In this document: positions 45,396 through 63,189 of the stretch, in pieces
How the letters are laid out: the number at the start of each line of letters is the position of its first letter
Position numbering within the stretch: the first letter of the stretch is position 1
Assembly (NCBI GenBank): GCA_001414485.1
Contig: LLEY01000015.1
Span: 62,001 to 126,000, forward strand
Origin: Calycina herbarum
Taxonomy: Eukaryota; Ascomycota; Leotiomycetes; Helotiales; Pezizellaceae
DNA: 64,000 nucleotides
Direction: 5' to 3'
The notes under the pieces: generated by a model
Told to the model about the DNA's origin: nothing
Seen by the model: only the letters and a program-made list of their open reading frames with translations
Database searches by the model: none
Translations under genes and position numbers: made by a program

Positions 45396-47785
45396 TCATT
45401 TCTTCCTCTCTTTTCTATCGCGGTCGCTCCGATCATGGTGCCGACTGGTTCCACCCTTCTCGTGGCGTGACGGTTTACTGACACTCTCACGACGAGATCG
45501 CTGTCTAGATGCTTCAATTTCGCCGCGTGTAGGAAGTTCTATATCCCTGTCCTCGTCGTTTCTAGTGTAGGTAGAATCTCCATAAGATGTTTGCGAAGGT
45601 TGATTTCGTGATGGATAATAAGTGGAGACAGCAGCAGGTGGTGAGGTATAAGAGTAGGTAGAGTCGCTTGTAGAAGAACGAGGATTTGTTGCGTAGGATG
45701 TCGAATAGCCTTGCCCGCCTGGTTGAGGGACCGTCTGATAGGGAGACGGATTGGTTCCCATCGACTGGTACGATGGCCTGTTATCCATATAGCCACTTCT
45801 GGAATATGGTGTTGTTGAGACGTTAGTTTGGGGTTGGGTAGTATAATTGTAGCCGGACGTTTCGCTGGTGGGGGAGAACCCCGGATTACTTCCCGACCCT
45901 TCTGTTGAAGAGTAGCTGATTGTTGATGGTGGATTATCTCCGTAACTCGAATAGCGAGTATCGGTGGAGCTATGTGGTGTAGTACTATATTGTACATTGG
46001 AGCTAATCGGATACGCTGAGCTCGGGGCCATCGAAGGTGCTTCTGGCCTTGATTGTGGATTGTAAGAGGTGTTACCATATCCAGTCTGACTCTGCGGTTG
46101 ACCAATTGGAACCCGATAAGTGTCATCGGTGCTGGCGCTGCTGTAGCTGTTTGGCTGAGTGCTGAACGAAACGGTTCGATTATGTGCAGGAGTTGCTGTC
46201 ATCGAGTCCATTTGATTACCGTATGCCGAACTACTTGCTCCAAATGAAGATCCAACTCCAGTAAGATATTGGTCATTTCGTTGGTGGCTAGTATCTGCTG
46301 GTGTAGGCGAACTACTAGAGAAGTTGACTTCTCTATAATACGCCTCGAGTAATTCTAATGAAGCTTCATCCAACACCCCAACATCCATGACTTTTACATT
46401 TGTCTCAACTGTGTATATACACCCATAATTGACAAGAGAAGGATCTCTCAATGGCTCTGCATTTTTGGAGAGAATAATTTTCAATGGCTTTTTGGTAACA
46501 CCCGAGTCCGTCTTCGGAGGCTTCTTCGAGCTGTATATTGGCCCATGCTCTTCAGGATCCTGCCACAAATTAGTATCCTCAACAAATGGTACCAGAGAGT
46601 ATATAATAGAATACTCCCCGCGCTAACAGTCATGAATGTTAAAATGATTGCTCACTATGTCAGGCTTTTTGTAACCACGTCCCTCATAAGACGTCACTGG
46701 CAGGCAAGTACAACGTCTATTGCTCTGTTTAAAGTTGACCACGACAAATCGCCGAATTTTCGTATGAACCTTCTCGCCATATTTAACGAAGCTTATGAAT
46801 GTTTCGTTCTTGTTGGTCATCCCAGAAGCAGGAACCGTCCAAAGGGTGCTGAAAACCCTTCCAACCTTGAAAAACTTTTTGTAGTCGTGATTCCGTACTT
46901 GGTAACGCGGATCAAGTTTCTCAGCATTGCCAGGTGTTCCCGTAACATATCGGTGATCGTCATTTTGGCTTTCATCCAGTTCCTGGGGAGAAGTAATCGC
47001 CCCGCCACCCTGGGCCCGATATCCGCCTTCGGCTTGGGCAGCAAAATCCCCAGTGGTCCCCTGAGCAGCACTAATCGGCGGTGCCGAATATCCAGACGTG
47101 GTTGTATACGTGGTAGTATAAGGACTGGATACTATAGGCACAGAAGAATCATATCCAACAGTCGGAGTCTTATTACGGTCGTCCAGAGACAACGAGTTCA
47201 TCCCACTTTCTATAGAAGCGCTAGGGGTGGCAATTGGTGCAGATGTCGAGGATGAACCGTAATCCTGAGTGCCTTCATAGCTAGCTGTACCTCGATCGTA
47301 CCCACTGGAACTCGGGGTGTACCCAGTTCTTTGTGAGGACCTAGTATCTTGAGTTCCGCCGTATCCACCTGAACCGTGATATTGCTTCGAGTGCTTGTCA
47401 TAGGAAGTATTTCGAGTTGGTTGGGACTGCTTTGGCTCTCGATAAGTATCCCGACTCGATTCGGAACCACGTCTGTGGGGGGCTTTGTTCGAAGAATGCC
47501 TTGATGAGCTGGGTAGGGTTCTGGGCACCGTGGATGGATTTTGATATCTGGAAAGAAGCTAGTATCAATACAAGGCGAGTAGTCCGCGATGGAGTAGAAT
47601 ATAGGACTTACGATGAATTAGAACTCGATTGCTCGTATTGCCGTACGCTTCTCCCGGCTTTTCTCCTATGTTAGCATTTGTTCATAATTGTTTGATTCCG
47701 TGGTGGCATTGTTACATTCGTCCTTCCCATTTATGTACCAGCGACCCGTCTCTGGTTCGTAAATCCAAGGATTCGGACTCGACAT
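45396..47785 (-). CDS. module 1: DUF6590-type protein with prion-like flanks (copy A), 744 aa
   Basis: Exons 47785-47716, 47657-47612, 47547-46656 and 46622-45396 keep frame. The protein opens MSSPNPWIYEPETGRWYING. A low-complexity segment rich in Ser/Tyr/Thr/Gln/Gly follows (SSSGYDRGTASYEGTQDYGS and similar). The folded domain, from roughly residue 235, reads EKLDPRYQVRNHDYKKFFKV, GRVFSTLWTVPAS, KIRRFVVVNFK, CLPVTSYEGRGYKKPDI, EYSIIYSLVP and NYGCIYTVETNVKVMDVG. This is the order of blocks in the fungal domain I know as DUF6590, of unknown function. The C-terminal about 260 residues are again Tyr/Ser/Thr/Pro-rich and end in a basic Arg/Lys tail (SDRDRKERKK). The third intron would be only 33 nt (46623-46655), or 42 nt with a later acceptor. 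If not spliced, the frame stops there. It is the left partner of the coiled-coil gene at 49457. Confidence 0.75.
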
Positions 47786-49456
47786 CACTTCTTCATTGTC
47801 ACAGACGTTTGACGAAGGAGTAGCCAGCTATTTTGCTGAAGTAGGAACGGAACTTCCTTTAAGCCCAAGGACAGATCGGGCCACTGAGGCTCTGTGGTTG
47901 CGACATAGTGGGGTTGCAGGACTTAACAGAGAGGGGACCACGTCGTCTTGCAGGAAGGAAGGCGGATAGTGTGGTTGTCCCAAATCTGGTTGCACAATGA
48001 TTGAGCAACTCGGGGTGGGGGAGGATGCCGTATGGCTGGTCTCTACTCCCGCATAATTGATTTGAATCATCTGATAGGTGTAGCAATCACATGCCATAAC
48101 AATTGTGCAATTTCTTGGTGCCACTACTGTATCTGTCGAGAGGGGAAACGGCGGGTTGAACATGTACGGAAAGAGAGCCCGGCGACGTTTATGGGTAAAA
48201 GCGAGGCGAGACGCGAGATATGGTGGAAGGTGGTGATAGTGGGGTGTAAATCAGGTAGCGAGCTATCTGTGCCCCCCTTGAACCCCTATCTATGCCCCAA
48301 GATAGTGTCCAGCAGAGAGGTTGTGGAGGGGTATTTGTTCGGCGGTAGTGCTCCCGTTTTCAGTTCATCCTGAGTTGCAGGCTCTCTCGAGAGCGCTCGG
48401 GTCCTCCTGCAACCTGTCGACCCCTGAAATTGCCCACTAATGGCATCGGCATATGTGTGTTGGTGACGAGCTGTATCAGCACAACAGCAGCTTGATTGTA
48501 GGGAGGTGACAGTTAGGCCTTGCGTCCAGGTGCTAAATCGCAACAACAGGTGTCAAACTTCTTCTGCATCTTGGGGCCTAACCTAACTGAAACCCCCAAA
48601 AGATATGGTATCCAGAGAGTTACAGGGTGCCCAGTTCTGGCTCTGATTTGTCATTTTGGAATCTGATCAATCCCGGCGAGCTTTCAGCAGCATGCTGCAG
48701 CTGCAGCCCTGTGCATTTGGCGATCGCCACCCTCTGAGACAACCCGGATGGTACCCGCAGCAGTCCCCCGGACATCTGAGATGGTGCTTCTTTTGTCATG
48801 TCAAAACAGGCCAACAGGCGCGCCTCTCCTAATTCAATGCAACCTTTCGCGTGGGATGGAGAGGGGAAAGTACTGGTTCTCCCACACGATGAGGCTCTGC
48901 TGAATCCCCCCTTCTATTTCCAACACTCGTGGTAGGGTGGCTCGTTACTCGTTGGCGCATTCCTGTCTTCCCTCGTCCGCCTCACTTTCCACAATTTCGG
49001 GTTCTCCAGAGAGAGGCTCGGGGAGGATCATCCCATGAACTAGCATGGCTTCTTAAACGTGAACTGTCTTTTGATCAGGCCAGGTACCCGGTTTGATCAA
49101 CCCGCCACTTCCAAAGCCACGGTGCAAATGAAGAAGCTCCAAAGTCCATGGCACATGGCACCAGCTGCAGAACGCGGTCAAGCACTTGCTCACCCGCCTG
49201 TCAAAGAGTTTCTTATTCAATTGACACGTTACGATTACCCACAGCGAAATCCGTTGGATCCAGGGGCTGGAGCTGCCGCCAGCCGATAAGCTCCACGACG
49301 AAAGGTCGAAAAGCTGAACCGGTGAAAGCGAAGCTCACCAGGGGAGCGAAACTTTCCGCCCCAGAGCTACGGTCTCGGTCGCATGTCTTGTTAGTAGCAA
49401 CACAAAATCAAAACAATGATCAAAAGCTGGAGTTCAGAGGGCAAGAGCTCATCAAG
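47786..49456. promoter_or_regulatory. module 1 bidirectional intergenic region
   Basis: 1.67 kb between the two head-to-head genes of module 1. It holds both promoters and leaders. Upstream frames such as 49148-49456, in frame with the coiled-coil gene, have irregular composition and look like leader. No other gene is visible. Confidence 0.5.
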
Positions 49457-62163: not shown

Positions 62164-63189
62164 ATGGAGACTGAAAGTTCTTCTACTGGGAGACCCATCG
62201 CCGAGGATCTTCACCTAATGGGGCTGATGCAAGCTCTCAAATCTGTCGCAAAATTGCAACAAGAGATCTCAAATACTCAAATTGCTTTTCGAGAAAAGAG
62301 AAGAGAGGCCAGCTTCAAAAGGGAGGCTGTATCGGAGCGCGATGCCAAATTTATGCGGGAAGTTCAAAGACACATCGCAAGTGGAGAACTTCAACAATTT
62401 CAAGAGCTCGCACACGACTGCCAGAGTGCCCGGGATGCTTTGGGGCCGGTCGAAGAGGAAGGAATCATTGCGGAACAACAATTGGAAGGACAAATATGGT
62501 CGCTGCGACAAGCTGAAAAGCGCCTTTATGCCGAGTTCGAGTACGAGTTCCAAACCGCTGCTCGATATCCATCGCCTGAAAGTGTGGAATCCAGCGACTA
62601 TCAACCGCCGTCAGATCCCTACGACTACGAAGACCAGTTGACTAGCGATGTTGCAAGGCACGAGACAAAACTGCCCTCAGGATATCCAGAGTGCGCCATC
62701 TTATCCACAAGTTCAGCCGATGAAGATCTTGACATACCGCGTTCCATAGAAGCTGGGCATCATGGGCCAGCGCTCCCGAGCTCGCAAGAAAATTCTGAAC
62801 ATGAGGCATGGAACTCAGACTCGGGTATGACGGGCATAGACTGCGAAGCCGATGAAGGGCTTACCGGCACATTGCCAGAACCTCCCCACAGATTACCACG
62901 AAGACATTATAAGAGTGATTTGTACATCAACTTGCTCACAGACTTTGGATCGAAGAGAGACAGAATCAACAAATGGCTAGAGAAAAATGCTCTAGAATCT
63001 AGGGTTGAGGCAACATCGATCTTCAATATTCTTGGGGAGGAACTGCGACTGGAGAGTCAAGAGATGCCGTCAAATTGGTCGCAATTGGTTATTGCGTATT
63101 GGGAATTGGATGGTGCAGCCGTGTCACACCTTGGAGAACGCTGCTTCGACACTCAACATATATGGGAGGACGCAGATGAAATTAGATAG
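62164..63189 (+). CDS. module 3: coiled-coil protein with C-terminal WL/W motif, short form, 341 aa
   Basis: The start METESSSTGRPIAEDLHL is chosen; the frame is open upstream to 62110. It opens directly into a coiled coil (LMQALKSVAKLQQEISNTQI; ELAHDCQSARDALGPVEEEG), whose second part matches the 54468 protein (CQ-x-x-RD-x-x-GP-[LV]-E-[DE]). An acidic disordered linker follows, about residues 130-260. The C-terminal block, about 264-318, is RDRINKWLEKNALESRVEAT ... PSNWSQLVIAYWELDGA, which aligns with the other two copies. The middle helical block of the other copies (ending C-x-x-x-GL-x-[DN]-E) is absent, so this is a shortened version. Function unknown. Confidence 0.75.
   Translation: METESSSTGRPIAEDLHLMGLMQALKSVAKLQQEISNTQIAFREKRREASFKREAVSERDAKFMREVQRHIASGELQQFQELAHDCQSARDALGPVEEEGIIAEQQLEGQIWSLRQAEKRLYAEFEYEFQTAARYPSPESVESSDYQPPSDPYDYEDQLTSDVARHETKLPSGYPECAILSTSSADEDLDIPRSIEAGHHGPALPSSQENSEHEAWNSDSGMTGIDCEADEGLTGTLPEPPHRLPRRHYKSDLYINLLTDFGSKRDRINKWLEKNALESRVEATSIFNILGEELRLESQEMPSNWSQLVIAYWELDGAAVSHLGERCFDTQHIWEDADEIR

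Follow-up and report, generated by a model that had tools for sequence, protein, structure and literature searches.

The described systems closest to the one reported here are the bacterial MazF/PemK/Kid toxins, small proteins of about 110 residues. For prokaryotes it has been argued that a partner retained next to a MazF-superfamily toxin is a candidate antitoxin (PMC2701414). An automated toxin-antitoxin survey reports no sequence from a eukaryotic genome meeting all its criteria (PMC2446400). Here we describe three divergent gene pairs in a 64,000-nucleotide stretch of Calycina herbarum DNA (C57:62001-126000 of a 68.8-Mb fungal genome, hereafter the window), each consisting of a DUF6590 gene on the minus strand (DUF1, DUF2 and DUF3) and a coiled-coil (CC) gene on the plus strand (CC1, CC2 and CC3).

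The DUF6590 proteins resemble MazF/PemK/Kid toxins in their predicted fold and in having a conserved neighbour gene; a weak profile alignment would also place an Arg at one catalytic position and, in the DUF1-type copies, a Thr at the other. They differ in being eukaryotic, large and multi-part, with a partner that is divergently transcribed and coiled-coil, and with many copies having no partner. From the CcdB gyrase poisons they are set apart since no gyrase link is known for DUF6590, and the CC partner is not known to resemble CcdA. With the fungal HET/NLR allorecognition genes they share a multigene, diverged organization and an occasional proximity, but none of the defining domains of those genes was found in the DUF6590/CC pair. 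The window minus-strand genes belong to the family DUF6590 (PF20233), which has no described function in the literature searched (subscription papers and preprints being outside its scope), where neither DUF6590 nor PF20233 was found; likewise, no fungal MazF family was found among the papers listed there for MazF, PemK or mRNA interferase in fungi. To what is known of the family we add its CC partner, the pairing and a predicted MazF-like fold. A toxin fold accompanied by a partner is known from bacteria; the eukaryotic family, its partner and the divergent arrays appear to be undescribed.

Conservation of the gene pair

All three minus-strand genes, described as DUF6590-type in an earlier note on this DNA, scored above the Pfam curated cut-off of 27 bits taken as the threshold for PF20233 membership. 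In DUF1 (nt 45396-47785) both halves were matched (E 8e-22 and 9.1e-17; 78.3 and 61.9 bits), and single exons were matched in DUF2 (nt 52196-54187; E 1.1e-24, 87.6 bits) and DUF3 (nt 59916-61267; E 2.1e-13, 51 bits); a whole-genome DUF6590 search returned the same three places in the window. The order and orientation of the genes, with CC1 at nt 49148-50854, CC2 at nt 54807-56651 and CC3 at nt 62164-63189, are kept in all three pairs, as had been noticed before and as is borne out by the window sequence.

Genome-wide, the search returned 20 matches, which fall into 13 loci. Four of these loci are paired with a CC gene, always divergently, namely the three in the window and one on contig C317 (DUF6590 at 153.5-155.0 kb, minus strand; CC at about 156.3-157.8 kb, plus strand). 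Conversely, all four CC genes found adjoin and diverge from a DUF6590 gene, at two separate places of the genome; the count comes from six single-protein searches of which the best candidates were scored, so that a very divergent CC could escape it. The 10 kb around each of the 13 DUF6590 loci amount to about 0.19% of the genome and hold 4/4 of the CC genes found, thus making a chance adjacency untenable. No CC was detected at eight of the nine other DUF6590 loci, scanned with CC profiles over about 10 kb on each side, and the ninth (C317:164.5 kb), lying about 6.7 kb from the CC of the C317 pair, has none of its own.

The pairing extends to other species. In four annotated Helotiales genomes (HYFRA, GLAREA, BP5553 and IFR05) a CC1-type and a DUF6590 protein carry consecutive locus tags, the count being of genomes in which both members were found with sequential tags and concerning pair 1 only. 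In Hymenoscyphus fraxineus, CC2, CC1 and DUF1 correspond to HYFRA_00005475, 5477 and 5478, and in Cudoniella the CC2 relative g7990 and the DUF1-type gene g7987 lie on contigs of equal size. Among the 12 outside CC proteins with sequential-looking tags, four have a DUF6590 as their immediate tag neighbour (HYFRA 5477 and those of GLAREA, BP5553 and IFR05) and two have one three tags off (HYFRA 5475 and G7Y89_g7990). G7Y89_g9302 has no near DUF6590 among the matches listed, and HYALB_00008859, ACEPPN_010308, LAWI1_G001881, PAC_17102 and CJF31_00006122 have no same-genome DUF6590 in a list obtained by querying with DUF1 alone, from which DUF2-type proteins are expected to be absent. Contigs of equal size link 8 of 21 CC1-type and 5 of 30 CC2-type relatives to DUF6590 relatives (n=74), and place CC1 and CC2 relatives together on four contigs.

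The pairing of all CC genes found in this genome and the consecutive tags in other Helotiales genomes support the pair as an old, real unit, as the earlier note had proposed. The idea of a strict two-gene system has to be qualified, since DUF6590 often occurs without a CC.

The coiled-coil family

Full-length alignment of CC1, CC2 and CC3 is weak (20-26%), and a C-terminal motif, R-I-N-x-W-L ... W ... W-x-x-D, is common to the three. CC1 matches CC2 at E 1.2e-6 and P0114, a CC2 relative, matches CC3 at E 7.3e-6; on this sequence evidence the three proteins are assigned to one family, in agreement with the relatedness previously presumed. A profile of 24 CC sequences not including the C317 protein recovered the C317 CC at E 4e-25 in the fetched stretches. 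The C-terminal helical part carrying the motif lies at nt 50435-50686 (plus strand) in CC1 and is common to CC2, CC3, the C317 CC and a fifth protein, on C325, which matches the family in this part only.

The CC1 model, built with 52 sequences (predicted template modelling score 0.32), predicts a disordered N-terminus followed by two antiparallel coiled-coil hairpins (residues 157-266 and 294-378) and a helical C-terminal part that is more weakly predicted than the hairpins; it yielded no informative match. The disordered N-terminus of the CC1 relatives contains a common motif, P-P-R-Q-D-S-S-Y-F-S, and the CC2 relatives share E-Y-V-K-x-P-L-L-L-P. One might speculate that these are docking motifs.

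Predicted fold and putative catalytic positions of the DUF6590 domain

The DUF6590 domain of P0033, a DUF1-type orthologue, is predicted, with good support, to adopt a MazF/CcdB-like fold. A profile of 83 DUF6590 domains (10 of our own and 73 of 74 outside) was compared with Escherichia coli K-12 MazF and its relatives. It scored 23.4 against 84 close MazF sequences (reached by 0/200 controls) and 25.7 against 33 diverse ones (0/300), the controls being column shuffling, which is mild. The alignment is best on the strand around C-x-P-x-T, and when forced to full length it places MazF R29 on R261 and T52 on T278; the assignment of the catalytic Arg and Thr to positions 261 and 278 has, as the alignment has, low confidence. 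The corresponding Arg and Thr of MazF have been described as its two residues essential for catalysis (PMC4041440).

Over the 83 domains, Arg is found at position 260 in 83 and at 261 in 80, Cys at 274 in 82, Pro at 276 in 80, Thr at 278 in 68, Ser or Thr at 279 in 81 and Tyr at 280 in 82. Among our own copies, position 278 is Thr in DUF1, C92 and C350b and another residue in DUF2, DUF3, both C317 copies, C85, C350a and C114. Because of this pattern of Arg 261 and Thr 278 across the copies, DUF1-type domains could be active, while activity of the others is doubtful or would use a shifted residue. As a side observation, one MazF relative, L149 from a viral contig, has R-R-F-V-L-V where most have R-P, near the R-R-F-V-V-V of DUF6590.

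Age and duplication of the pairs

Trees were built by a quick method from 36 DUF6590 domains (including 26 of 74 outside proteins) and 34 CC proteins (including 30 of 51 outside proteins). In the former, DUF1 types separate from a clade of DUF2, DUF3, C317 and several unpaired copies (Shimodaira-Hasegawa-like approximate likelihood ratio test 97); in the latter, a CC1 clade (99) separates from a clade holding CC2 and the C317 CC (92), and CC3 forms a very long, unplaced branch. Both trees therefore agree on one deep split, 1 versus {2, C317}, which with four pairs luck alone would give one time in three. The matching splits fit a duplication of whole pairs. Congruence of the two trees, suggested in the earlier note as a check, is seen for that single split, CC3 being unplaced; its view of an old duplication followed by diversification agrees with the near-order of CC2, CC1 and DUF1 kept in H. 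fraxineus.

A single origin of the paired DUF6590 genes, as an exclusive clade {DUF1, DUF2, DUF3}, was rejected (p 5e-35), and so was {DUF2, DUF3, C317a} (p 2e-37), because unpaired copies nest among the paired ones: the unpaired C92 copy is 78% identical to DUF1 and the unpaired C114 copy 58% to DUF2. Therefore, either the single copies arose out of pairs, or CC genes were lost or gained. The clade {CC2, C317 CC} gave p 6.5e-4 in the approximately unbiased test, and was badly framed, with CC2 orthologues placed outside it.

Proposed role and alternatives

The reading we favour, tentatively and at somewhat less than even confidence, is that of a conserved module in which an RNA-directed DUF6590 protein of MazF/CcdB fold has a dedicated coiled-coil partner. 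The DUF6590 protein, with its predicted MazF/CcdB-fold domain set among long disordered stretches, would probably act on RNA, and the CC protein, transcribed in the opposite direction from a common intergenic region, would be its partner, most likely binding it and restraining, activating or positioning it. An ancestral pair would have been tandemly duplicated long ago in Helotiales, the copies then diverging, and DUF6590 copies would additionally have spread as singles without CC. We only infer that the target is RNA and is cut, that the two proteins bind each other physically, that one controls the other, with the CC as inhibitor, that the two genes are regulated together and that they have a role in cell death.

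Several observations weigh against such a module. The fold model covers the DUF1-type protein P0033 only, and a common fold does not mean a common function, CcdB having the MazF/CcdB fold and yet poisoning gyrase. The profile match between DUF6590 and MazF is weak (probability 2-21%), vanishes in global mode and, with L158, one of the four MazF reference rows, shifts its best match elsewhere (score 19.0); the Pfam PemK model (PF02452), searched up to E 10, hits neither the genome nor the scanned DUF6590 proteins. Position 278 is Asn, His and Leu in DUF2, DUF3 and C317, respectively, three of the four paired copies. The CC protein resembles no antitoxin, and in all four pairs the genes are large and divergent, with no compact co-directional operon as in type II toxin-antitoxin systems. 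A plain lethal toxin is hard to reconcile with the lack of an own CC at nine of the 13 DUF6590 loci. Finally, the four intergenic regions show no excess of common 8-, 9- or 10-mers over sequences shuffled by dinucleotide blocks, an approximate control, and a shared promoter motif was rejected on this ground.

The alternative that survives best, which we hold possible though clearly less probable than the module just described, is an RNA-processing or condensate module, in which the MazF-fold domain would only bind RNA or protein, the CC would be a scaffold without any toxicity, and the disordered Tyr/Ser/Gly-rich stretches and the RS/RD-rich tail would drive assembly. It gained weight because the disordered Tyr-rich stretches and basic tails of DUF1 types would suit an RNA-related protein equally well. 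Indeed, [GSTN]Y[GSQTN] motifs number 19 in DUF1 versus 9.1 in shuffles (reached by 0/500), 17 versus 5.1 in P0023 (0/500) and 15 versus 7.7 in P0028 (4/500), but they are not clearly enriched in P0033 (29/500), the DUF2 pieces (53 and 352/500) or the DUF3 exon (215/500). A basic RS/RD tail is present in DUF1, P0023 and P0033, and P0033 has a folded N-terminal segment (residues 1-30; predicted local distance difference test 83-93), although no known RNA-binding or WW domain was detected in it with Pfam at E up to 10. The absence of Thr278 from three of the four paired copies speaks for mere binding, and the retention of Arg261 in nearly all domains speaks against it.

We consider unlikely a stronger form of the favoured module, in which DUF6590 would found a eukaryotic MazF-superfamily branch as a toxin that cuts RNA, held in check by its own divergently encoded coiled-coil antidote. 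The pairs, amplified into arrays in Helotiales, would then serve to arrest growth in a regulated way, to kill cells or to fend off mycoviruses.

It is more improbable still that the pairs form a self/non-self recognition (allorecognition) locus, an idea raised in the earlier note, or a selfish poison-antidote locus. The tandem diverged copies and the toxin-like predicted fold with its partner would accord with it, as would the recurrence of the CC C-terminal part in the C325 protein, with its C2H2 fingers and a weak PigL_N match in a neighbouring frame, and the annotation of a CC2 relative of Amylocarpus as joined to DUF7708. On the contrary, no HET or NACHT domain was found with Pfam in the scanned pair proteins, and the persistence of pair 1 and of the two-pair array in several genera is unlike a recent driver. 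Around the nine unpaired DUF6590 loci, one HET and one NACHT gene lie within about 10 kb, against about 0.8 and 0.6 expected from the numbers of candidates (HET, 150 of 318 candidates listed; NPHP3_N/NACHT, 152 matches, with 150 of 223 candidates scored). Such genes are so many that one of each is near expectation, and allorecognition by association was thus rejected. PigL_N has 18 matches in the genome, none of them inside the fetched DUF6590 stretches.

An inherited neighbourhood with no functional tie, in which an old adjacency was copied along in tandem duplication, is comparably improbable: two of the three window copies are also a block in H. fraxineus and so are not independent events, and DUF6590 often lacks a CC, but the separate C317 pair is likewise divergent, no CC without a DUF6590 was found in this genome and the neighbours are kept across genera.

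The favoured module would give a testable fold and a likely target to a fungal family of no described function, and would mean that a eukaryote has a MazF-type domain accompanied by a dedicated partner. Should the domain prove to cut RNA and the CC to restrain it, the pair would be a toxin-partner module of bacterial-type fold in a eukaryote. Should the toxin-partner reading be false, DUF6590/CC would still be a conserved two-gene unit.

Gene models and neighbouring loci

The closest named relatives are H. fraxineus proteins (78% for CC1, 80% for the DUF1 region), pointing to a helotialean host. DUF1 has four proposed exons encoding about 718 amino acids (aa), with long stretches rich in Ser/Thr/Tyr/Gly and a basic tail rich in RS/RD; of several frame-keeping options for its first two introns, one was chosen. 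Its DUF6590 domain (nt 46344-46880) is interrupted by an intron (nt 46560-46655) which, by comparison with P0023, includes the in-frame stop near nt 46623. The intergenic region of pair 1 (nt 47786-49147) measures 1,362 bp.

DUF2 is intact, with a product of about 515-518 aa and a long GC-AG intron (nt 53330-53619 in one model, donor GCAAGT), picked as the option yielding the longest open product; its domain (nt 52754-53329) contains introns. The intergenic region of pair 2 (nt 54188-54806) is 619 bp long, or 280 bp with a CC2 start at nt 54468. DUF3 has two exons and about 431 aa, with one intron inside its domain (nt 60054-60589), and is separated by 896 bp (nt 61268-62163) from CC3, a short and very divergent family member of 341 aa.

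The CC genes had been correctly placed on the plus strand, but two of their proposed starts are revised. That of CC1, given as nt 49457, is probably nt 49148, since the resulting 568 aa equal the length of the relative P0002; the H. fraxineus annotation P0003, unlike this model, begins near nt 49457. That of CC2, given as nt 54468, may be nt 54807 judging by H. fraxineus P0100, the open frame extending up to nt 54447.

Some minor observations concern related loci. The CC2 relative P0117 (Amylocarpus encephaloides BJ875DRAFT_408011) is the one annotated as joined to DUF7708 (E 7.7e-38), through either a fusion or an annotation error, and the C325 protein, with its C2H2-like fingers, is located at L038:1237-3169. 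On C317, a DUF7580 gene (L013:3641-4993; E 1.4e-15) lies between the pair and the further DUF6590 gene. The C92 gene (43.7-49.9 kb; L020:5490-8048, L003), in two frames and with no CC, adjoins a NACHT gene (C92:44756-45271), and the C114 gene (6-13 kb; L007, L022:5230-6135), also with no CC, adjoins a HET-domain gene (C114:6449-6904). Lastly, the DUF6590 gene at C350:376.7-380.2 kb (L002) encodes DUF6590 twice within a single frame, the second domain forming a very long branch.

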